From a virus, in the IMG/VR virus record IMGVR_UViG_3300034683_000120, positions 1-36,258 of that record: a DNA stretch of 36,258 bases; one strand, given 5' to 3'. Position 1 is the first letter of the stretch. The number at the start of each line of letters is the position of its first letter. Positions 43 through 36,258 of this stretch are shown here, in pieces. The notes under the pieces were generated by a model, which made no database searches, had not been told where the DNA came from, and saw nothing but the letters and a program-made list of their open reading frames with translations. Both the position numbers and the translations under genes were made by a program.

Positions 43-127
43 GCGGTAGTGGTGGAATTTGGTAGACACGCTAGCTTGAGGTGCTAGTGGGAGAAATCTT
101 GTGCTGGTTCAAGTCCAGTCTACCGCA
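43..127 (+). tRNA. tRNA-Leu (anticodon GAG), phage attachment site
   Basis: The sequence folds as a leucine tRNA of 85 nt. The acceptor stem GCGGTAG (43-49) pairs with CTACCGC (120-126). The anticodon arm is CTAGC, loop TTGAGGT, GCTAG, with GAG at 78-80. A long variable arm and a T arm with loop TTCAAGT follow. CCA is not encoded. The gene is intact on the left side of the prophage; bases 74-127 are repeated at the right junction, so integration occurred within this gene and left it functional. Confidence 0.97.
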
Positions 128-200
128 AGCGGGAATCCTTTTCTGTATATGGAAATAGCAGGGAGGGGTTCCTTTTTTATTGTGAACCATCCCTTGCAAT
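74..200 (+). repeat. attL: attL: 127-bp direct repeat
   Basis: Bases 74-200 are identical to 36132-36258. The repeat starts in the anticodon arm of tRNA-Leu and runs through the tRNA end and its terminator. Base 73 differs from 36131. The second copy ends at the window edge, so the repeat could be longer. Such repeats form when a phage that carries a copy of a tRNA 3' end integrates into that tRNA gene. Confidence 0.96.
132..178 (+). terminator. Probable tRNA terminator inside att repeat
   Basis: GGAATCC (132-138) can pair with GGGTTCC (166-172, one G-T pair) and is followed by six T (173-178). The position directly after tRNA-Leu suits a factor-independent terminator. The loop of about 27 nt is long, so this is moderately supported. 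It lies within the duplicated att segment, so both junctions carry it. Confidence 0.55.
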
Positions 201-222
201 TACAGAAGGTCGGCACTATAGT
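194..222 (+). promoter_or_regulatory. Integrase promoter (TTGCAA-N17-TATAGT)
   Basis: The -35-like TTGCAA (194-199) and -10-like TATAGT (217-222) are 17 bp apart and point at the integrase start at 242. The -35 is the last part of the att repeat and the -10 is in phage-specific DNA. The -10 lies within the paired CGGCAC sites at 211-228, so a protein bound there would block transcription. Confidence 0.55.
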
Positions 223-228
223 CGGCAC
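211..228 (+). repeat. Left pair of CGGCAC repeats, candidate integrase arm sites
   Basis: CGGCAC occurs at 211-216 and 223-228, 12 bp apart. The same pair with the same 12-bp spacing is found inside the right junction at 35995-36012. One pair on each side of the att core fits arm-type sites of a tyrosine integrase. This is inferred from symmetry and position only. Confidence 0.5.
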
Positions 229-2345: not shown

Positions 2346-2684
2346 TCATTGCGCCAGTAGTGCCTCAAGTGCATTGATCTCATTCCTGGTATCGATTCTT
2401 TGCTGAACGATTTCTGGATATTTGGTATTTACATCCAGCCCTTCTTCTGCACATTTCAGATGGATCCAGTCGGTTGAATAAAGGAAATCCTTGAGCTCCG
2501 GTATCCTTTGCCTTGCATAGAGTAGCTCAAAAGTTTCATTTCCTGTTGTCCTGAAGTAATCACATTCATACTCAGTGACAGGACCATTGTCGGTTTCCCT
2601 GGTTACCGGTTCGAAGTTACCTCGAAGCTCTCTTACGTTTCCGAATACAAATTCTGTTTGCATCGTGTCCACGGTCATCCGCAT
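2346..2684 (-). CDS. Unknown protein coupled to the DGR reverse transcriptase
   Basis: A protein of 112 residues. The ATG at 2684 follows GGAGG by 7 nt and overlaps the last 10 bases of the reverse transcriptase gene, so the two are probably translated together. The protein is acidic and ends in a helical stretch (EINALEALLAQ). The segment around STDWIHLK followed by an arginine/asparagine helix resembles small chaperone-like proteins found after tail fibre genes; this is an impression from the pattern. It does not look like Avd, the usual DGR accessory protein, which is basic and a four-helix bundle. It could be a fibre assembly factor or a DGR accessory of another kind. Confidence 0.65.
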   Translation of the reverse strand: MRMTVDTMQTEFVFGNVRELRGNFEPVTRETDNGPVTEYECDYFRTTGNETFELLYARQRIPELKDFLYSTDWIHLKCAEEGLDVNTKYPEIVQQRIDTRNEINALEALLAQ

Positions 2685-3715
2685 TTTGCTACCTCCTTGA
2701 GGTTGTTTTCGTATATGGTGTTCTGTATCCTTGAGAACATTCGTCTGCAATCCGAGTGTTCGAAGAATCCTTTTCTCGACAGGAGCGACCTTGCTTTCTT
2801 TGGAGTGATATGGCCATTGTCTATCTTATCGCAAAGCCTACGTGTCATGAGATAGTTGTTTCTCCTCAGGTCCTGCTTGCCGTTCCTGTGGGTACGGTAG
2901 CCGAGCATGTCGATGAAATGCCCTTCCCATTTGAAAATCCTATACTTCCCGTGACCATCCTTTTTTGGGGAAAGCCCAAGATTCAGTAGCTCAATATCGA
3001 TGTATCTAAAAGCCTTTTCTGCTTTTCTTCTTGAATTGAATAACAGGAGCATATCATCCACATACCTCAGATAGAACTTGACCTGTAGCTGTTCCTTTAC
3101 GAAATGGTCGAAATCAGAAAGATAGAAAAGAGCACACCACTGGTTGAAATATGAACCAAGAGTTATTCCCTTGTGCTCCTCATTCGTATCGTGGATCAGT
3201 ATTGTTCTGATGAGGTTCATCAACTTCTTATCCCTGATTCGCTCTGCATATTTCTCTATCAGTTTATCCACATCAATATTGTTGTAGTATTTCTTTATAT
3301 CCAGCTGAAGGACCCACTTTGTTCCTCGTTGCTGTGACCAGTGCTTGAGCAGGTTCTTGCCGTATTCGATTCCCCGGTCACGTATGTTTGCTACTGAATG
3401 CTTGATGAAGTGCTGCATGTATCTCTCCCGAAGGCATTCAACAATCATCCAATGCACAATCTGGTCACGGAAGGCAGGACAGGATATCTCCCTTTTCTTC
3501 TTTGCGTTCTTGTCGTACTTGACCATCTTTTTCTGTGGTCTCGGGTAATAGGTTCCGTCAATCAATTCACCCAGCAATTGCTTCTGGGCTTTCTCTTCAC
3601 CCATGTTGATGACAGACACCCTAGAGCGCTTGTTTTCGCTTGCCAACATATAGGCTATCTTCAGGTTTTCCATTGTTGCAAATTCACTGAAGGTTATCTC
3701 TTTCCATGTAATCAT
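2675..3715 (-). CDS. DGR reverse transcriptase
   Basis: A 346-residue reverse transcriptase of the diversity-generating retroelement type. The palm motifs are visible: LDIKKYYNNID with Asp139, and YVDD (218-221) followed by hydrophobics. Between them LGSYFNQ (186-192) takes the place where DGR enzymes carry LGxxxSQ and group II intron enzymes QGxxxSP; the Asn for Ser is unusual. There is no maturase or nuclease domain, and the size is typical for DGR enzymes. The ATG at 3715 has AAGGA about 7 nt upstream. The gene lies 112 bp downstream of the template repeat and follows the fibre gene on the same strand. In known DGRs this enzyme copies the template RNA with errors opposite adenine, and the cDNA replaces the variable repeat. 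Confidence 0.95.
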   Translation of the reverse strand: MITWKEITFSEFATMENLKIAYMLASENKRSRVSVINMGEEKAQKQLLGELIDGTYYPRPQKKMVKYDKNAKKKREISCPAFRDQIVHWMIVECLRERYMQHFIKHSVANIRDRGIEYGKNLLKHWSQQRGTKWVLQLDIKKYYNNIDVDKLIEKYAERIRDKKLMNLIRTILIHDTNEEHKGITLGSYFNQWCALFYLSDFDHFVKEQLQVKFYLRYVDDMLLLFNSRRKAEKAFRYIDIELLNLGLSPKKDGHGKYRIFKWEGHFIDMLGYRTHRNGKQDLRRNNYLMTRRLCDKIDNGHITPKKARSLLSRKGFFEHSDCRRMFSRIQNTIYENNLKEVAKCG

Positions 3716-3827
3716 TCGTTTATCCTTACATTCATCAGCTTTCGCATTGTTTCAGCTACCGGCAGATTTTTGTTAATGTATTTTCCAAAAGGAGGACGAT
3801 TGCTTGCTTCAGTAAGTCTTTGATAAG

Positions 3828-3938
3828 GATAAGGCGGGACCCGATGTTGTGGTTGGAGTTCCCCGGCGCATAGTTACCACTGCAGTAGAAGAGGGAAACA
3901 TTGCCACCATTGTTCCAGTTGCCACCGGAGTGCAAAAT
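3828..3938 (-). repeat. DGR template repeat (TR)
   Basis: 111 bp that align without gaps to the variable repeat at 4022-4132 (offset 194) with 14 mismatches. On the coding strand the TR has 24 adenines and all 14 mismatches fall on them. The TR is rich in AAC/AAT codons at positions that are varied in the target. It lies between the fibre gene and the reverse transcriptase. A short open frame runs through it but is not expected to be a gene. The bases nearest the RT (3828-3844) show no change and should hold the initiation region for homology. Confidence 0.96.
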
Positions 3939-3985
3939 CGCTTGCAAGCAAACACCCTGAAAAAAAATTTTCAAAAACCGACAGG

Positions 3986-4006
3986 GCAGGGGTTGCGCAC
4001 CCCTGC
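3986..4006 (-). other. Hairpin downstream of variable repeat
   Basis: An 8-bp perfect stem, GCAGGGGT paired with ACCCCTGC, and a 5-nt loop lie 15 bases after the end of the variable repeat. In the Bordetella phage DGR a hairpin of similar stem length just after the variable repeat aids target recognition. Ten bases further on is a T-rich run (GGTTTTTG), so it may also act as a terminator for the fibre gene. Confidence 0.75.
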
Positions 4007-4015
4007 ACCCCCGAA

Positions 4016-6235
4016 CTAACCGATAAGGCGGGACCCGACGTAGAGGTCGGAGCTCCCCGGCGCATAGTAACCACTGCAGCAGAAGAGGGAAACAATGCCA
4101 CCAGAGATCCAGCCGCCACCGGAGCGCAAAATGCGGACACCGTCGTATGTAGCAGTGAAATTGTACACATATGCTGCATAGAACGTTCCAGAGCCTGCTG
4201 CTCCTCCTATCACTATTACATAGTCAACAGAGCCTTGGTCAGTCACGAATGGCTTACGTGTAAGCTGGTAGCCATTGCCATCAAAATACTCTCCATCTCC
4301 TGTGTAAATCCATCCTGCATCAGAGCGCGGGTCGGTTACGTTGTATTTGCTCTGGTCAAAGCAGATATAGTAAGCACCATTATACCGGGCAAAACCATAG
4401 GTAAAGCTCCATACATTGCCCCAGAGGTCCCAGATGCCACGATAGGATACGTGTGACCGTGATTCACTTCCGAATTGCAGGATGTAACCTGAGCCACCTC
4501 CCAGTGCGTCAATCTGGGAAGAGGGAACCGGTTGTCCCCAGCTTACTATTGATGTTGTACCTGCTGTAGAGTTGAAAGCTGCTCCATCAACGGTGATTCT
4601 CTTGTTCGATGCGTCATAATCGGCAATCGCTGTGATTTTTCGGTTTGCTGCAACGCTGTTGTTTGAATATGCAGTTCCAATCTGCATGACCATGCCAACA
4701 TACATGTTGGTAGCCCCTGCATTCGGAATAATAATGCTGGTTGCGCCGGTCTGGCTCACTGAGCAGACAAATTCACTACCGCTACCGTATGGCATGCCGG
4801 AGTTGATTCCCTGCCCGAATTTCGCTTTCTGGTCCCAGTCCCCAGCTTCCACTGCCATCAGCAATCCCAGCTTATGACGAGTCGCAGAATCATCGAGCCA
4901 CCAGCCACCATCACCCTTTGCATATGCGGTAGTGATGAATGAGGTGTACGTCCTATTTACTTCAATTCCCATATCCGGTTTTGACCGCAACTCTGTATCG
5001 TATCCAGCAGGAACGCGACCAACAAGACGGTACTCAACAGGTTTGCCATCCTTATCCAACCATGCCGGATAAAATCCAACAACAGGCTGTGTGGCTATAC
5101 GAATATGACGGACGTTGTCAACATCGATATAATCTTGGAACCAAAATTGCGGAATGAGTGTCATATACTCACCGTCTACGGAAGAGTAATTACTATCTCC
5201 AAGTTCTGCCAAAATGTTCTTATTGCTATCCACCTTTACCTGCTTGATACCTTTCCACGGATAGTAGTTGTCAAAGTCTGATGCAATTGCGTTCACTCCA
5301 TCAGGAGTCCCGAAATTCAGTCCTACAGCCATGTCTGTACGTGTGTATGTATCAGTGTCATTGTCCCATTCCAAACCAAATATTTGCAGTGATTGGGTTT
5401 CTAAACGTGACACCCTTGTATCAATCGGGTCCACAGCATCCTTGACACTTTTGGCTACTGAGCCTTCGGTCTCGGAGTCGGCGTTGAGGGTGGTGATTGC
5501 ATCCTCATGGCTCTTCAGCGTGCCCCCCGTATAGCCCACACCCTTGATCGCTTCCAGTGAGTCGTCCACCAGCTTCTCAGAGGGGTAATGGGTGTCGTCT
5601 GGCGTCTCCTGAAAGGCTGTGACCTTGTTGTCCTGTATCTGGGCAATTGCATCCGCATTCCTCTTGACCGTCTCTGTTGTCCGTCCTGCTCCGGCAATGT
5701 CGGCAATGGCGGCGTCGACCAACGCTTTGAGGGCACTCAACTCAATCCAGTTTTCCAACGTGGTAGCTGGCGAGGCCGAGAGGATGAACACTTGGCTGGT
5801 GTCGGTCCTGATTGCCATGTCGCCTTGCTCTGCACCACTGGCAAGCATGGCGGCCTCCGAGTCCACAGGGAATACGTCCACCAATGCGATGGAGGGTATC
5901 TGGGTAGAGGGAATCTTGCCGTCAGAACCGAGAGTGGCAATGCCGTTGGGCTGTGCATACTTGGCAATCTCGGCGGCGATAGCATCAGAGAGAGCCTTCC
6001 CCTGCCGTGCGTCCAAGACCTTCCCAGGAACCGTGGTGGTGACATTGTTGACGACGTTCGTGACCTCCACCAAGGCTTGCCTCAGAAGGTCGAGGGAGAG
6101 CTTGTACTGGATATGGGTATCAGGGGCAACACCCGAACCGGTTCCTGTAGCCGGCTGGATCAGGATATTATACAGCCAGTCGAGGCTGGTTTTCTGTGTA
6201 TGTTGGTTTATCGATTGTACTGCTGCTTCGCTCAT
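4016..6235 (-). CDS. Tail fibre / adhesin with C-type-lectin-fold tip, DGR target
   Basis: A protein of 739 residues. The N-terminal 60 or so residues look like a tail attachment region. Residues about 75-290 carry fibre-type segments, with GLNFG-like and coiled-coil stretches and a typical phage fibre pattern (KVLDARQGKALSDAI, NGIATLGSDGKIP). The C-terminal half, with WDLWGNVWSF, RSGGGW, CSGYYAPGSSD and GSRLIG, matches the formylglycine-generating-enzyme type of C-type lectin fold used by DGR targets. The variable repeat encodes about residues 702-738, ending one codon before the stop. Varied residues are surface-type positions around the conserved SGG, APG and GSRLI scaffold. The ATG at 6235 overlaps the previous stop (ATGA) and follows GGAGG. 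Probably binds the host receptor. Confidence 0.93.
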   Translation of the reverse strand: MSEAAVQSINQHTQKTSLDWLYNILIQPATGTGSGVAPDTHIQYKLSLDLLRQALVEVTNVVNNVTTTVPGKVLDARQGKALSDAIAAEIAKYAQPNGIATLGSDGKIPSTQIPSIALVDVFPVDSEAAMLASGAEQGDMAIRTDTSQVFILSASPATTLENWIELSALKALVDAAIADIAGAGRTTETVKRNADAIAQIQDNKVTAFQETPDDTHYPSEKLVDDSLEAIKGVGYTGGTLKSHEDAITTLNADSETEGSVAKSVKDAVDPIDTRVSRLETQSLQIFGLEWDNDTDTYTRTDMAVGLNFGTPDGVNAIASDFDNYYPWKGIKQVKVDSNKNILAELGDSNYSSVDGEYMTLIPQFWFQDYIDVDNVRHIRIATQPVVGFYPAWLDKDGKPVEYRLVGRVPAGYDTELRSKPDMGIEVNRTYTSFITTAYAKGDGGWWLDDSATRHKLGLLMAVEAGDWDQKAKFGQGINSGMPYGSGSEFVCSVSQTGATSIIIPNAGATNMYVGMVMQIGTAYSNNSVAANRKITAIADYDASNKRITVDGAAFNSTAGTTSIVSWGQPVPSSQIDALGGGSGYILQFGSESRSHVSYRGIWDLWGNVWSFTYGFARYNGAYYICFDQSKYNVTDPRSDAGWIYTGDGEYFDGNGYQLTRKPFVTDQGSVDYVIVIGGAAGSGTFYAAYVYNFTATYDGVRILRSGGGWISGGIVSLFCCSGYYAPGSSDLYVGSRLIG
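4022..4132 (-). repeat. DGR variable repeat (VR)
   Basis: The 3' end of the fibre gene. Compared with the template, 12 codons differ and every one changes the residue: H to R, N to G, N to I, N to S, N to I, Y to C, N to Y, N to S, N to D, H to L, N to Y and I to V. All changes start from A. The unchanged 3' end (coding GGGTCCCGCCTTATC) is GC-rich and fits the initiation-of-homology segment. The pattern shows that the element has been active in the ancestry of this prophage. Confidence 0.96.
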
Positions 6236-20588: not shown

Positions 20589-22313
20589 CTAGAAGAAGAC
20601 CGCAGCACTAGCAAGATCATCAAGAGTCAATCCTGTTTTAGCGTTGTTTATTGCGGTATCGTGCGCCATGATGGCTGCGATTACTCCGTCGATGCGCGCT
20701 GCGCTTCTGTCTACCTTTGGCTTGATTAGCTTTACATTCCCATTTGAATCAGTCCATGAATCAGCACTACTCATCATCCATTTCATGACTGGATTGCCAC
20801 CTGACTGGATGTTTCCCAATAGATACTGTCTCTCAAAGAATTGTGTACTGGGGCTCATGGTCATCTTCCCCTGGCTGAACTCGAATGTGATTTCTTCGAA
20901 CCAGGAGGGAGTTACCCGCGCAAGATCAATGAGCCTGTGACGGTCACCGGCAATAAGGTTGACCTCGTATTTCTCCCTAAACTCGGTCAACCATTGACCT
21001 ACCATCACATAATCAACCACCGGTCCAGGAGTAGCTATGACATAGCCATCCTGTATCCATTGCTCCAGAGGAATAGAGCATTGTCTTTGAATCTTGATAA
21101 CATTCTCTTCTGGTACCCAGAACATGTATAGCTGTTGGTGCTGGCTCGAACCATCGATAGGAGGGAAGTCAGCAGCAAAGGCGGTAAAGTCACTATTGCT
21201 CGAGAGGTCAATACCTCCATAACAAGGAGCGCCTTCGACAATGCTTACGGGAGCACAGCAGAAATCGTTCCACTTCTCCATGTTGGCCCATTTAACCAGG
21301 CTATATACCCACATGTTTAGATTCTTTGTTTTGAAGGTAGCAAGGTCGGATGCACTATCCTTTGAGTCCTTGTAACGCCCCTCAATCATGTCAGGGTATA
21401 TTGAGATACCCCAGTTTGGATTAGCTTTTATCCAGGTATTTCTCTCACCGGGTTTATCATTCTTTTCGGCTTCATAGATACCCACCCAATACCGGTCATT
21501 CTCAATATCGCCATAAGCAATCTTCTTGCATTTCTCGTACTCTTGATGACAAGGGCCATGGATATTAGTTCCCGCCGTAGTGATAATCAAGGCCATACTC
21601 TCAGGATCGCTCACGTTACCTGAAAGAAAGGAGTCAAGCATCCCGGTATCCTTTGCCTCATGGTATTCGTCCAGGATGGCACAGTGAATCAGCTTACCGT
21701 CCTTAGGAGCGGCGGTAAGAGCCTTTACCTGGCACTCACCCCATTTGATAATCTTGTAAGTTTTGGAATTGTAGGACTCATAACCTTTATGCTTGGCAAG
21801 CTTCAATCCCTCATCAGCACGACTGAAACAGTCATCCGCCTGCTCTAGGCTGTTTGCTGCAATAACACTTACTGCGCTGGGGTAGTTGTCGCCGAATGCC
21901 ATGTAATCAGCAATCGCACCGGCTAAGGTACTCTTGCCGTTCTTACGCGGTATCTGCCAATAAGCTCTTACATAGCATCTTCTACCGGTTTCTCTATCGA
22001 CAAAACCGAAGAGGTCCATGATATCGAAGATTTCCCAAGACTCAGCCTTGAATGCCTTACCTCGCTTTTCGCCTAAAGGGAACTTGTAATTGGCAGCTAT
22101 CCAAAGAAGCGGTTTTAAAGCCTTCTCTATGTCAAACACCCAGCGCCCGTTAGTCTGCTTAAGTCTGGATTGATGACGTCTTACCTTCGCCCGCTCAACT
22201 CCACTCACCAAGCGCTTACCACTCAACACCATATCGCAGTACTCCTGGTACTGCTGGATAAAGAGTTCACTCAACTTGGTTTTGGTTGTTTGGGATAAGG
22301 TGCGTCCGATCAT
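20589..22313 (-). CDS. Terminase large subunit
   Basis: A protein of 574 residues with the ATPase and nuclease halves of a packaging motor. The Walker A-like IPRKNGKST is near residue 120 and Walker B AILDEYHEA near 213-220, followed by ITTAGTN (coupling motif). The nuclease half has GIDLSSNSDFTAF with the first acidic site and AARIDGVIAAIMA near the C-terminus. It is of the HK97/P27-associated type. Overlaps the small subunit stop by 4 bases. Confidence 0.95.
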   Translation of the reverse strand: MIGRTLSQTTKTKLSELFIQQYQEYCDMVLSGKRLVSGVERAKVRRHQSRLKQTNGRWVFDIEKALKPLLWIAANYKFPLGEKRGKAFKAESWEIFDIMDLFGFVDRETGRRCYVRAYWQIPRKNGKSTLAGAIADYMAFGDNYPSAVSVIAANSLEQADDCFSRADEGLKLAKHKGYESYNSKTYKIIKWGECQVKALTAAPKDGKLIHCAILDEYHEAKDTGMLDSFLSGNVSDPESMALIITTAGTNIHGPCHQEYEKCKKIAYGDIENDRYWVGIYEAEKNDKPGERNTWIKANPNWGISIYPDMIEGRYKDSKDSASDLATFKTKNLNMWVYSLVKWANMEKWNDFCCAPVSIVEGAPCYGGIDLSSNSDFTAFAADFPPIDGSSQHQQLYMFWVPEENVIKIQRQCSIPLEQWIQDGYVIATPGPVVDYVMVGQWLTEFREKYEVNLIAGDRHRLIDLARVTPSWFEEITFEFSQGKMTMSPSTQFFERQYLLGNIQSGGNPVMKWMMSSADSWTDSNGNVKLIKPKVDRSAARIDGVIAAIMAHDTAINNAKTGLTLDDLASAAVFF

Positions 22314-22648
22314 AGGCCAAAGTCCGATTCAATGTCTTTGTCATTGACCCGCTTCCTTGTGGGTTGCGGGGTGTACTTCATGGCTTTGCGGTCCTTGGGT
22401 GTAGCGCCATATTTGCTCATGATCCTGAGATATGATGCAATCGCCGCCTGTTTGTCTTTGTCATTTTTGGCTGTACGGAATTGCTCGTACTGGGTGCAAG
22501 CCATTTCAATCACTGGCTTGTCCAATTCGGTTGCAAGACCCATCGCAATTAGAGAACCAAAGAGATCAGCCCAATGACTCTTTGCAATTTCTCCCAGATG
22601 ATCGGGAGCAGTAGGCCTTGTAGAAAGAATTTGTTTTTTTCTAGCCAC
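22310..22648 (-). CDS. Terminase small subunit (P27 family-like)
   Basis: A protein of 112 residues directly upstream of the large subunit (ATGA overlap). RPTAPDHLGEIAKSHWADLFGSLIAMG and TELDKPVIEMACTQYEQF, followed by YLRIMSKYGATPKDRKAM, match the P27-family small terminase. It recognises the packaging site. GTG start with GAGGTG about 7 nt upstream. Confidence 0.85.
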   Translation of the reverse strand: MARKKQILSTRPTAPDHLGEIAKSHWADLFGSLIAMGLATELDKPVIEMACTQYEQFRTAKNDKDKQAAIASYLRIMSKYGATPKDRKAMKYTPQPTRKRVNDKDIESDFGL

Positions 22649-22677: not shown

Positions 22678-23166
22678 TCACGACTGCCTGACCGCGCTGG
22701 GGTTATGTGTAGGGGGGGAAGTTTTGGACCCCTCCCCCGGGGTAGCTGAGGACAGGCGGGCCTTGTCTGCAAAGTAAGCAGCAATCTTCTCCCTATCCTC
22801 CAGCTGCTTGCGTCTGTTGCAGGAATAGCAAAGCGGTTGGTATAAAGCAGGGTCCAGGTCAAACTTCCCGTACAGGTCCATCATGATCTCAGCAGGGATG
22901 CTCTTATGGTCCACACACTGGGCTGGCTTACCACACAAAGCACAGTTAGGATTCCCCTTGAGAAAGTCCTTTGCAAACTTGTGCCAGCTATGGTCGTAGC
23001 CACGCTCAGGTGCACTCGGCCTAGGTGAGATATCCTCACCCTGCTTCACCGGTTCATGCATATACAAAGCAGAACGCTTAGCCTGGCACTCATCACAGTA
23101 CCCGCTAGCGTTCGTATGCAGATTCGAACATCGGTATGTTTTGCATCGTTTCTTGAATAATCCCAT
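22678..23166 (-). CDS. HNH endonuclease
   Basis: A protein of 162 residues at the head of the packaging operon. An N-terminal Cys cluster (CKTYRCSN and CDEC) precedes the HNH core: NPNCALCGKPAQCVDHKSIP and LCYSCNRRKQLED with paired CxxC motifs and the His in VDHK. HNH proteins beside terminase are part of the packaging nuclease machinery in HK97-like phages. The C-terminal 25 residues are Ser/Pro/Thr-rich. A promoter with TATAAT lies 9 nt upstream of the ATG, so the leader is only a few bases long. Confidence 0.9.
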   Translation of the reverse strand: MGLFKKRCKTYRCSNLHTNASGYCDECQAKRSALYMHEPVKQGEDISPRPSAPERGYDHSWHKFAKDFLKGNPNCALCGKPAQCVDHKSIPAEIMMDLYGKFDLDPALYQPLCYSCNRRKQLEDREKIAAYFADKARLSSATPGEGSKTSPPTHNPSAVRQS

Positions 23167-23175
23167 ATCGTGCGT

Positions 23176-23204
23176 ATTATACCACGAAAACAGGTTTTAA
23201 GCAA
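23176..23204 (-). promoter_or_regulatory. Late (packaging-structural) promoter
   Basis: On the - strand TTGCTT (23204-23199), a 17-bp spacer and TATAAT (23181-23176), with TG one base before the -10 (extended -10). It drives HNH, terminase and the structural genes. The predicted start lies only about 3 bases upstream of the HNH ATG. The -35 is poor, and phased repeats at 23229-23283 lie just upstream, as for an activator-dependent promoter. Confidence 0.7.
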
Positions 23205-23228: not shown

Positions 23229-23283
23229 GATACATCCAGATACTAACTGATACGCCAAGTCACTAACTGATACTCTATGATAC
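23229..23283 (-). repeat. 10-bp phased GATAC (GTATC) repeats upstream of late promoter
   Basis: GATAC on the + strand occurs at 23229, 23239, 23249, 23269 and 23279, with a variant GTCAC at 23259, that is, every 10 bp exactly. The array starts about 25 bp upstream of the -35 of the late promoter and reaches the last codons of the VRR-NUC gene. One site per helical turn suits a row of protein on one face of DNA. The same motif with the same phasing recurs at 36022-36109. Confidence 0.85.
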
Positions 23284-34596: not shown

Positions 34597-34859
34597 GCTT
34601 GGTCCTCATTGTCTGATAGGCCGGAAGACTCTCCGGCTGGAGCCTTGGTAGTGGTATTACCTTTTCTATATGTCAAAGATCTAACGGAGTTCTTACGCCG
34701 TTTTCGATTCATAAGCCATGCATCAAGTTCGTCCTTGTCGACGCGATTCACCCTCCCAATCTTGAAGTGTGGAATGTCATTTGATGCCAGGAGACGCCTT
34801 ACTTGCGTCTCAGAGAGCTGGAGGTAATCAGCTACCTGTACAGGGGAAAGTAGAGTCAT
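34593..34859 (-). CDS. Excisionase-like HTH DNA-binding protein
   Basis: A protein of 88 residues. The first 50, with LLSPVQVADYLQLSETQVRRLL and IPHFKIGRVNRVDKDELDAWL, form the winged-HTH of the excisionase/MerR-like (HTH_17) family. The rest is basic and then polar. Second gene of the leftward early operon, ATGA overlap with the first. It could direct excision with the integrase or act as an early regulator. Confidence 0.8.
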   Translation of the reverse strand: MTLLSPVQVADYLQLSETQVRRLLASNDIPHFKIGRVNRVDKDELDAWLMNRKRRKNSVRSLTYRKGNTTTKAPAGESSGLSDNEDQA

Positions 34860-35032
34860 TGGGCATCCTCACTCAGTAGGAAGGTCGCGAAGGCTATAAT
34901 TGCATCGTGGTAGAACATGGGCCTACGCACTGATGTTTTATTGATAGCCTTCTTTATGGTCTCTTTCTCTTGCTCGGAGAATCTTTGTATAACGATGTGT
35001 GCCGTGCTTTTGCTAGGTGTTTTGTGGTTCAT
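34856..35032 (-). CDS. Small protein, first gene of leftward early operon
   Basis: A 58-residue protein. Sequence IVIQRFSEQEKETIKKAINKTSVRRPMFYHDAII has two helices and a basic loop and could be a small DNA-binding protein. There is no Shine-Dalgarno; the predicted transcript starts at or near the ATG. It is in the Cro-like place opposite the repressor, which makes an anti-repressor role possible, but no HTH is certain. Confidence 0.65.
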   Translation of the reverse strand: MNHKTPSKSTAHIVIQRFSEQEKETIKKAINKTSVRRPMFYHDAIIAFATFLLSEDAQ

Positions 35033-35038
35033 AACACT

Positions 35039-35067
35039 AAGTTACCGTGCATTTGCACGTATGTCAA
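35039..35067 (-). promoter_or_regulatory. Leftward early promoter with operator in the spacer
   Basis: On the - strand TTGACA (35067-35062), 17-bp spacer, TAACTT (35044-35039). The -10 is weak but the distance to the ATG at 35032 is 6 bases, so the transcript would be leaderless. The palindrome CGTGCATTTGCACG (35046-35059) fills the spacer. Confidence 0.7.
35046..35059. promoter_or_regulatory. Operator 1 (palindrome)
   Basis: CGTGCA-TT-TGCACG is a perfect 6-bp palindrome around TT, between the -35 and -10 of the leftward promoter, where bound repressor would block polymerase. It contains GCATTTGC, also found in operator 2. Confidence 0.7.
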
Positions 35068-35099
35068 TGAAAATATTCGTTTTTTTTGGTATTTATTTG

Positions 35100-35122
35100 G
35101 CATTTGCAGGGTAGACAAATGC
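35100..35122. promoter_or_regulatory. Operator 2 (GCATTTG-N9-CAAATGC)
   Basis: A perfect inverted repeat of 7 bp with a 9-bp spacer that covers the -35 of the rightward repressor promoter. It shares the half site GCATTTG(C) with operator 1, which suggests the same protein binds both and that the repressor controls itself. Confidence 0.7.
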
Positions 35123-35145: not shown

Positions 35146-35571
35146 ATGAAAACAAAGTCAGAAAGCAAGTTTTTCTGGACTCGCATTGATGAGGGGCTAC
35201 GTGAGAGAGGTATCACTCTTGCAGAACTATGTAGGCAACAGGATATCAAGTACGATTCAATTATTTCTTCCAAGATGCGCGGGACTTATCCAGGAACGAT
35301 CACTACATTCAAGATTGCTCAGGCATTGGGAACGAGCATGGAAGCGTTAATTGCTGGCAAGCAAGACAACCTCTATGTCGCAGAAGATACGCACTCTTAT
35401 GGCACCGATCCCCTGTATCAGCTCCTTTCGGGGGATACGGACCTTAAGGGTTTGGTTTGGCGTATCACGCAATGTACAGCGTCCCAGATCAGAGCAATCA
35501 AGACGATGCTTTCAACCTGGGATATTGGACCATATGACAGTATGGGTAAACCTATCAAACAGACTGTCTAA
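35146..35571 (+). CDS. CI-like repressor (XRE family HTH)
   Basis: A protein of 141 residues. The N-terminal 70 residues have RIDEGLRERGITLAELCRQQ, then YDSIISSKMRGTYPGTITTFKIAQALGTSMEALI, a lambda-repressor-type HTH. The C-terminal 70 residues are helical with no peptidase signature (no Ser/Lys dyad), so it is not of the LexA-cleavage type. It is divergent from the early operon and would maintain lysogeny by binding the two operators. Confidence 0.85.
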   Translation: MKTKSESKFFWTRIDEGLRERGITLAELCRQQDIKYDSIISSKMRGTYPGTITTFKIAQALGTSMEALIAGKQDNLYVAEDTHSYGTDPLYQLLSGDTDLKGLVWRITQCTASQIRAIKTMLSTWDIGPYDSMGKPIKQTV

Positions 35572-35644: not shown

Positions 35645-35992
35645 GTGAGAAAAGTTGTATTTATAGCCATAATAGCTACCATGCTTACATCATGCTCTTT
35701 GTTTGATAAGTATACCTTAGATCCACCGCAGTGGATTATAGGGAGGTGGACTCAGGGAGAATCGAGAGGCTTTGTGTTCAGTGATTACGATATAGCCTAT
35801 ATAGACGGAGATAGAGTTGTATCTTTTCGGAACCAGGCTGAACGGGGTGACAAGCTCACCGACAGCAGCGACAGCGAATCCTATTCCATCAGGAATCTCT
35901 ACTCCGGCGATTATTACAGCATCACCAAAGATGATGAAAGGATACATGTAAACATCAATGGGTATGCCGTCGGATACTTTGATAGATTGTAA
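35645..35992 (+). CDS. Small lipoprotein (moron candidate)
   Basis: A protein of 115 residues. VRKVVFIAIIATMLTSCSLF is a signal with lipobox LTSC, cleavage before Cys17. The mature part begins SLFDKYTLDPPQWIIGRW, a beta-rich domain with a repeated Y.D/Y.I pattern. GTG at 35645 is chosen from AGAGGG about 8 nt upstream. It lies on the + strand after the repressor, a place often held by genes expressed in the lysogen, so it may alter the host surface. Family not known. Confidence 0.78.
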   Translation: MRKVVFIAIIATMLTSCSLFDKYTLDPPQWIIGRWTQGESRGFVFSDYDIAYIDGDRVVSFRNQAERGDKLTDSSDSESYSIRNLYSGDYYSITKDDERIHVNINGYAVGYFDRL

Positions 35993-35994
35993 CT

Positions 35995-36012
35995 CGGCAC
36001 AGAATCCGGCAC
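35995..36012 (+). repeat. Right pair of CGGCAC repeats, candidate integrase arm sites
   Basis: CGGCAC at 35995-36000 and 36007-36012, 12 bp apart, equal to the pair beside attL (211-228). The region between them and attR holds the phased GATAC repeats. Confidence 0.5.
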
Positions 36013-36021
36013 AATCTCTAT

Positions 36022-36109
36022 GATACTCATAGATACACAAAGATACAGTATGATACAGTAAACCCTTTCGGCATACTCACTTATGATACTGTGTGATACT
36101 TACAGATAC
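36022..36109 (+). repeat. 10-bp phased GATAC repeats beside attR
   Basis: GATAC at 36022, 36032, 36042 and 36052, then CATAC at 36072 still in phase, then a second run at 36085, 36095 and 36105, with GATAT at 36113 near phase. Each run has one site per 10 bp. The array is between the paired CGGCAC sites and attR, as for binding of a recombination accessory protein in attP. The motif and phasing equal the array at 23229-23283. Confidence 0.85.
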
Positions 36110-36131
36110 ACTGATATACAGAGGGACTTCG

Positions 36132-36258
36132 GCTTGAGGTGCTAGTGGGAGAAATCTTGTGCTGGTTCAAGTCCAGTCTACCGCAAGCGGGAATCCTTTT
36201 CTGTATATGGAAATAGCAGGGAGGGGTTCCTTTTTTATTGTGAACCATCCCTTGCAAT
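36132..36258 (+). repeat. attR: attR: 127-bp direct repeat with truncated tRNA
   Basis: Identical to 74-200. It holds the 3' 54 bases of tRNA-Leu and the terminator-like element but not the 5' part, so there is no complete tRNA here. The window ends with the repeat. Confidence 0.96.

Follow-up and report, generated by a model that had tools for sequence, protein, structure and literature searches.

Phased GATAC arrays beside attR and upstream of a late promoter in a prophage: candidate sites of an excisionase-like protein

The GATAC arrays

The stretch analysed here, referred to as the window, is the whole of the IMG/VR virus record IMGVR_UViG_3300034683_000120 (36,258 base pairs, bp). It contains a prophage that lies between two direct copies of a 127-bp repeat, at 74-200 and at 36132-36258, which mark attL and attR (Table 1). 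Between the end of a lipoprotein-like open reading frame (ORF) and the attR copy of this repeat lies an array of the short motif GATAC, and it is this array, together with a second one at a late promoter, that is the subject of this study. Exact matches begin on the + strand at 36022, 36032, 36042 and 36052, and again at 36085, 36095 and 36105, with 10-bp steps within each run and 33 bp between the runs, so that the runs do not share one continuous 10-bp phase. The original prediction of seven GATAC in two 10-bp phased runs, placed between the lipoprotein gene and attR, is thereby confirmed (the ORF stops at 35992 and the repeat starts at 36132). Imperfect copies in phase with the runs are also present, CATAC at 36072 and TATAC at 36115. 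The second array lies 12.8 kilobases (kb) away on the same + strand, between the end of a VRR-NUC-type gene, whose last codons it overlaps, and an HNH gene. The two arrays had been described as identical in motif and phasing, which holds for the motif and the 10-bp step, while the layout differs, being 4 + 3 beside attR and 3 + gap + 2 at the late promoter.

Phased GATAC triples with a 10-bp step occur four times in the window and not once in 1,000 dinucleotide shuffles. Among all 5-mers, GATAC alone has more than one such triple, and the one other 5-mer that forms a triple, ATACA, overlaps the GATAC frame. Chance or a simple repeat as the origin of the arrays can be rejected, given the negative shuffles and a motif that is conserved while its spacers vary. 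A degenerate scan of the window found no third GATAC array. As a separate observation, GATAC is about twofold over-represented across positions 1-36258 (118 copies vs 59 in shuffles), an excess that the 12 array sites do not explain.

The attachment site and its conservation

In the circular form of the element, the order of features is the P-arm pair of putative Int sites (35994, 36006), the GATAC array, the TTGAGGT crossover, the P'-arm pair (210, 222) and int (242), with 134 bp between the crossover and the TCGGCAC pair of the P' arm. A lambda-type attP is ordered as arm sites, directionality-factor sites, core and arm sites. Read from its sequence, the attR array appears to be part of an attP built like that of lambda. 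The element does circularise, as contig G002 carries the joined attP sequence. Repeat pairs 11-12 bp apart are found 5′ of int in most relatives examined, and their sequence differs between elements, consistent with arm-type sites that diverge together with the integrase. Comparison with more distant integrases (36-47% identity) revealed neither a long att repeat nor a P-arm pair in the stretches covered. The int gene is itself preceded by a promoter-like site at 196-223 (TTGCAA-17-TATAGT, identified in the matching attP contig L012), the -10 of which falls between the two putative P′-arm sites, an arrangement by which Int may control its own gene.

The relatives compared comprise G004, a 36 kb phage with Int 90% and Xis 95% identical to those of the window; G001 and G003, which are deletion derivatives; G002, an attP fragment; and G030, a Sphaerochaetaceae genome whose prophage occupies the same tRNA-Leu gene and has an Int with 70% identity, together with a near-copy in a second genome of this family, G501. 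The arm pair, the seven GATAC and the crossover stand at base-pair-exact distances from one another in the window, G004, G002, G030 and G501 (attR side). Between the window and G030, the GATAC bases are identical at 35 of 35 positions vs 47 of 97 other columns (Fisher p ~2e-9, in a test that treats columns as independent), and the spacer positions inside the array agree at 26 of 63. In the stretches compared, the window genes common to G030 are only int, xis, orf58, the repressor gene and a tail gene, plus a weak Sak4-like match, and int and xis are conserved together in G004, G030 and G501. In G030 and G501, the sequence just past attR (L075 and L102) holds the first part of another int copy, which is truncated and is left over from a different element that had used this tRNA gene.

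The pattern is not a property of host DNA. A scan of host genomes had been proposed with the original prediction, which commonness of the pattern in host intergenic DNA would have contradicted; across 393 Spirochaetota genomes, four phased GATAC were found in three, one case being the prophage of G030 and the other two being perfect tandem repeats, and a host-wide pattern was rejected. Within the G030 genome, exact phased triples occur only at attR.

The excisionase-like protein

The leftward early operon of the window encodes an 88-amino-acid protein, here called Xis, which matches PF12728 (HTH_17) with 50.5 bits (cut-off 27), TIGR01764, the 'excisionase family DNA-binding protein' model, with 40.9 (cut-off 28.8) and phrog_66 with an E value of 3e-10. 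It is thus a small protein with excisionase and HTH_17 profile matches, encoded in the same element as a tyrosine integrase, and its helix-turn-helix (HTH) is nearly unchanged in G004 and G030. The only sequence matches in the PDB are Pukovnik Xis and RdfS, both weak. The best Foldseek matches of a low-confidence structural model are Pukovnik Xis, RdfS and BldC (probability 0.97-1.00, E ~0.1). The start of xis is overlapped by orf58, a conserved 58-amino-acid protein without a family match in profile searches. An ORF listed on the + strand at 34917-35114 is probably spurious, the opposite strand there encoding the conserved orf58.

The second array at the late promoter

The HNH gene, followed by terS and terL, opens the packaging and structural operon and is read from the minus strand. 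Its presumed promoter has an extended -10, TGGTATAAT, with a poor -35, owing to which the promoter scan did not report it, and the array lies ~50 bp upstream of this -10. The spacing at 23164-23181 is short, with just nine bases between the -10 and the start codon of HNH, as is also the case in contig L110, and the late transcript may therefore be nearly leaderless. The late array is conserved above background in the window's own lineage: over a 100-bp stretch comprising the array and its promoter-side flank, mismatches number 0/101 in G001, 0/101 in G003 and 1/101 in G004, against a background in which the aligned parts of these three are mostly 91-96% identical.

The deletion derivatives G001 and G003 share a deletion that has removed most of the repressor gene, attP and the first half of int, so that the remaining start of the repressor gene is joined to the distal half of int (G001, L079, 12721-13382, and likewise in G003); as their sequences stand, these phages look unable to form lysogens. 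Despite the loss of attP, their xis genes carry four silent and no amino-acid changes and their late array is unchanged, which hints at a role of Xis beyond excision. The deletion probably arose only once, however, and perhaps recently.

Which protein reads the arrays

We consider it very probable, from the sequence context and comparisons described above, that Xis acts at the attR array, and likely that it also acts at the late one. The gene sharing and covariation across relatives leave three readers for GATAC at attR, namely Xis, which is the best candidate, orf58 and a host protein. For both arrays together, the explanation that we favour is a single protein, with Xis at attR and, most likely, at a second operator in the late array, an account that we hold to be probable overall.

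The foremost alternative is that two proteins are at work, with Xis at the attR array and a further, so far unrecognised activator of Ltr type at a late array of similar appearance. In Gram-positive phages, late promoters are switched on by the activators Ltr, RinA and Alt, which bind to direct repeats; these repeats precede the endonuclease-terS-terL promoter, as they do here (PMC13123087). Phased GATAC is also found in other phages. Most of those with four phased copies have perfect or near-perfect tandem repeats, while arrays with varied spacers number 13 for GATAC vs 2 for CATAG, the reversed motif used as a control. Several of the GATAC arrays of other phages are located at late promoters beside Ltr-type genes. 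In unrelated phages, TGATACC arrays lie directly upstream of promoters (Table 1), with an Ltr/sigma-like activator gene just before the array in four cases (L013, L040, L051 and L053) and an HNH gene after it in L013 and L051. A search of the unrelated GATAC contigs for HTH_17 gave two other matches over the cut-off, without a clear att link. These arrays nevertheless differ from those of the window. The base after GATAC is C at 0/12 sites of the two window arrays vs 17/21 sites of the Ltr-type arrays (including L048), and the window's late array has the opposite orientation and is farther from its promoter. Moreover, whereas the activator gene of Ltr-type systems lies directly upstream of the repeats, no match to phrog_36, phrog_248, DUF1492 or a sigma-like family was found among the window proteins scanned, and the gene adjoining the late array is VRR-NUC-like rather than an Ltr-family activator. 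Because no Ltr-type gene was found, the next base is never C, and orientation and distance differ, one protein is favoured for both arrays, and we judge the involvement of two proteins to be unlikely.

Less likely still is that orf58, by itself or together with Xis, is the reader of GATAC at either array or at both. As orf58 is encoded in the same operon as xis and is conserved in G004 and G030, it survives the argument by elimination; on the other hand, it matches no DNA-binding family, and direct repeats spaced by one turn are characteristic of winged-HTH directionality factors. That the integrase uses the GATAC sites as its arm-type sites is very improbable: they do lie in the P arm, and arm sites can be short direct repeats, but GATAC is absent from the P′ arm, where, as on the P arm, a separate repeat pair is present that varies with the N-terminal region of Int. 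The P-arm pair has the same spacing and position in G004 (TCGGCAC) and G030, where its motif has changed to TCTACTC, matching an Int N-terminal region that is 55% identical, while GATAC is constant alongside the nearly unchanged HTH of Xis. Least credible of all are operators of the XRE-type repressor, which, although its gene is nearby and co-inherited, has an HTH region in G004 that is 28% identical to the window's while both arrays are kept, and there is no array between repressor and xis. The conservation of the attR array is thus independent of both the Int arm motif and the repressor, and this covariation disfavours both candidates. Replication iterons were likewise disfavoured, and the original suggestion that site-specific recombination and replication are controlled together found no support, since G030, with the same attR array, shares in the stretches compared no replication gene other than the weak match to a Sak4-like annealing protein (25% identity).

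Several observations weigh against a single Xis protein at both arrays. Phased GATACC stands at late promoters of unrelated phages with a different kind of regulator adjoining, which means that a shared motif alone is no proof of a shared protein. The late array is absent from G030 and from L110, which has a TerL 75% identical to the window's and keeps the -10 and the HNH start; it is thus a feature of one lineage, although its absence from L110 would be expected if different phages use different regulators. The attR site is kept in few independent lineages. The model of Xis has a mean predicted local distance difference test (pLDDT) score of 63, with no Foldseek match below E 0.001. Finally, the degenerate scan found no array at the lysogeny switch, in the intergenic region between xis and the repressor gene, unlike in 186 and P2, and an autoregulatory third array at xis was accordingly dropped as a candidate.

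Coordinates and a further element of the window

The window also contains a complete diversity-generating retroelement at 2675-6235, in which 13/13 differences between the template repeat and the variable repeat fall on template adenines.

Table 1. Positions of the features discussed, in window coordinates unless a contig is named.
Feature	Position	Strand	Remarks
GATAC array beside attR, putative Xis sites in P arm	36022..36109	+	4 sites, 33-bp step, 3 sites
attR copy of 127-bp att repeat	36132..36258	+	identical to 74-200
Presumed crossover region TTGAGGT	36134-36140 (= 76-82)	+	anticodon-loop position inferred from tRNA sequence
attL copy of att repeat	74..200	+	begins inside tRNA-Leu(GAG) 42-128
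Putative P-arm Int sites	35994..36012	+	TCGGCAC 35994-36000, CCGGCAC 36006-36012, 12 bp apart
Putative P'-arm Int sites	210..228	+	TCGGCAC at 210-216 and 222-228
Tyrosine integrase, 376 amino acids	242..1372	+	PF00589, phrog_1
Excisionase-like HTH_17 protein (Xis), 88 amino acids	34593..34859	-	proposed reader of both arrays
orf58, conserved 58-amino-acid protein	34856..35032	-	overlaps xis start; rival reader; kept in G004, G030
XRE-type repressor-like protein	35146..35571	+	phrog_4, phrog_3
Lipoprotein-like ORF	GTG 35645 to stop 35992		5′ of attR array
Late-promoter GATAC array	23229..23283	+	sites 23229, 23239, 23249, 23269, 23279
Extended -10 (TGG-TATAAT) of presumed late promoter	23176..23181	-	read from sequence; no good -35
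HNH endonuclease	22678..23166	-	first gene of packaging/structural operon; phrog_144
terS	22310-22648		after HNH; Terminase_4
terL	20589-22313		after terS; tblastn
Retroelement reverse transcriptase	2675-3715		diversity-generating retroelement
Retroelement template repeat	3831-3930		diversity-generating retroelement
Retroelement variable repeat	4025-4124		diversity-generating retroelement; reported at end of target gene 4016-6235
TGATACC arrays of other phages	L013:1690-1724, L040:1499-1533, L048:2759-2793, L051:6357-6391, L053:6085-6119		4-5 sites, 10-bp steps; directly upstream of promoters

Discussion

The role of the array at attR is well supported by the comparison with relatives, and we infer that Xis binds there, bends the DNA and serves excision. 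After induction, the leftward early operon with orf58 and xis would be transcribed, and Xis monomers would occupy the GATAC sites head to tail, one per helical turn, to form filaments of four and three protomers. These filaments would introduce a bend into the P arm, in the segment that separates the Int arm pair from the crossover site, and so allow Int to span arm and core sites and to release the prophage from the tRNA-Leu gene. The late array would be a second operator of the same protein, through which it would regulate HNH-terS-terL and tie the expression of structural genes to excision. As to the direction of this control, activation seems somewhat more probable than repression. The proposal that one protein couples excision with late transcription finds support in this way from comparison, through the att placement of the array, its conservation, its tracking with xis and the presence of the late array, with the late role being the more conjectural part. 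We also entertain, as a tentative extension that we rate a little below even, that in this lineage the excisionase has replaced the late activator, such that a Xis filament turns on the packaging and structural operon and no separate activator exists.

Excisionases that double as regulators are already known, as exemplified by 186 Apl, P2 Cox and Pf4 XisF4. Directionality factors described in the literature recognise direct repeats spaced by one turn; they bind weakly to a single site and cooperatively to several, and bend the DNA (PMC7498355). Apl of 186 and Cox of P2 have such direct repeats, one helical turn apart, at their att sites, as does the window; in 186, Apl has five sites at att and seven at pR-pL, and for both proteins transcription is controlled by the same protein from a second array (PMC7498355), to which the array at 23229-23283 would correspond. 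The second array of Apl and Cox lies at the early/lysogenic switch and represses, whereas that of the window lies upstream of the late packaging promoter. As no array was seen at the switch, the system of the window would be one to compare with the Apl/Cox type rather than a member of it. XisF4 of the Pseudomonas prophage Pf4 also binds and activates the promoter of the replication initiator PA0727, and is thus an earlier case of lytic-promoter activation by an excisionase (PMC7379572); its target is a replication gene, whereas the target proposed here is the late packaging operon. A dual excisionase that acts at the late packaging promoter would thus be a variant of the known dual type.

The manner of binding proposed here can be compared with that of related proteins. 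RdfS of ICEMlSym-R7A and Pukovnik Xis are of the HTH_17 family, like the Xis of the window, and bind attP; RdfS also binds promoters and has been proposed to form filaments on DNA (PMC11963761). In contrast to the strict GATAC of the window, RdfS has no consensus motif, and it carries an extra N-terminal helix. BldC of Streptomyces, which is small, MerR-like and of the same winged-HTH fold class, forms head-to-tail polymers on direct repeats, with filaments of about one turn per protomer (PMC5859096). It is a host developmental regulator that uses 9-bp AT-rich repeats, whereas the window has GATAC in 10-bp steps.

A full-text search of the literature for Sphaerochaeta prophage integrases returned only an off-topic match. 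The arrangement described here gives a base-pair map of the likely attP/attR recombination complex in Spirochaetota prophages, and its strict motif, with seven and five sites, should make binding, spacing and bending easier to study than for RdfS, which lacks a consensus. It also makes testable the question of whether a directionality factor can serve as a late-gene switch. If it is true that an excisionase has replaced the late activator, the virion genes of this phage would be tied to excision through one protein.
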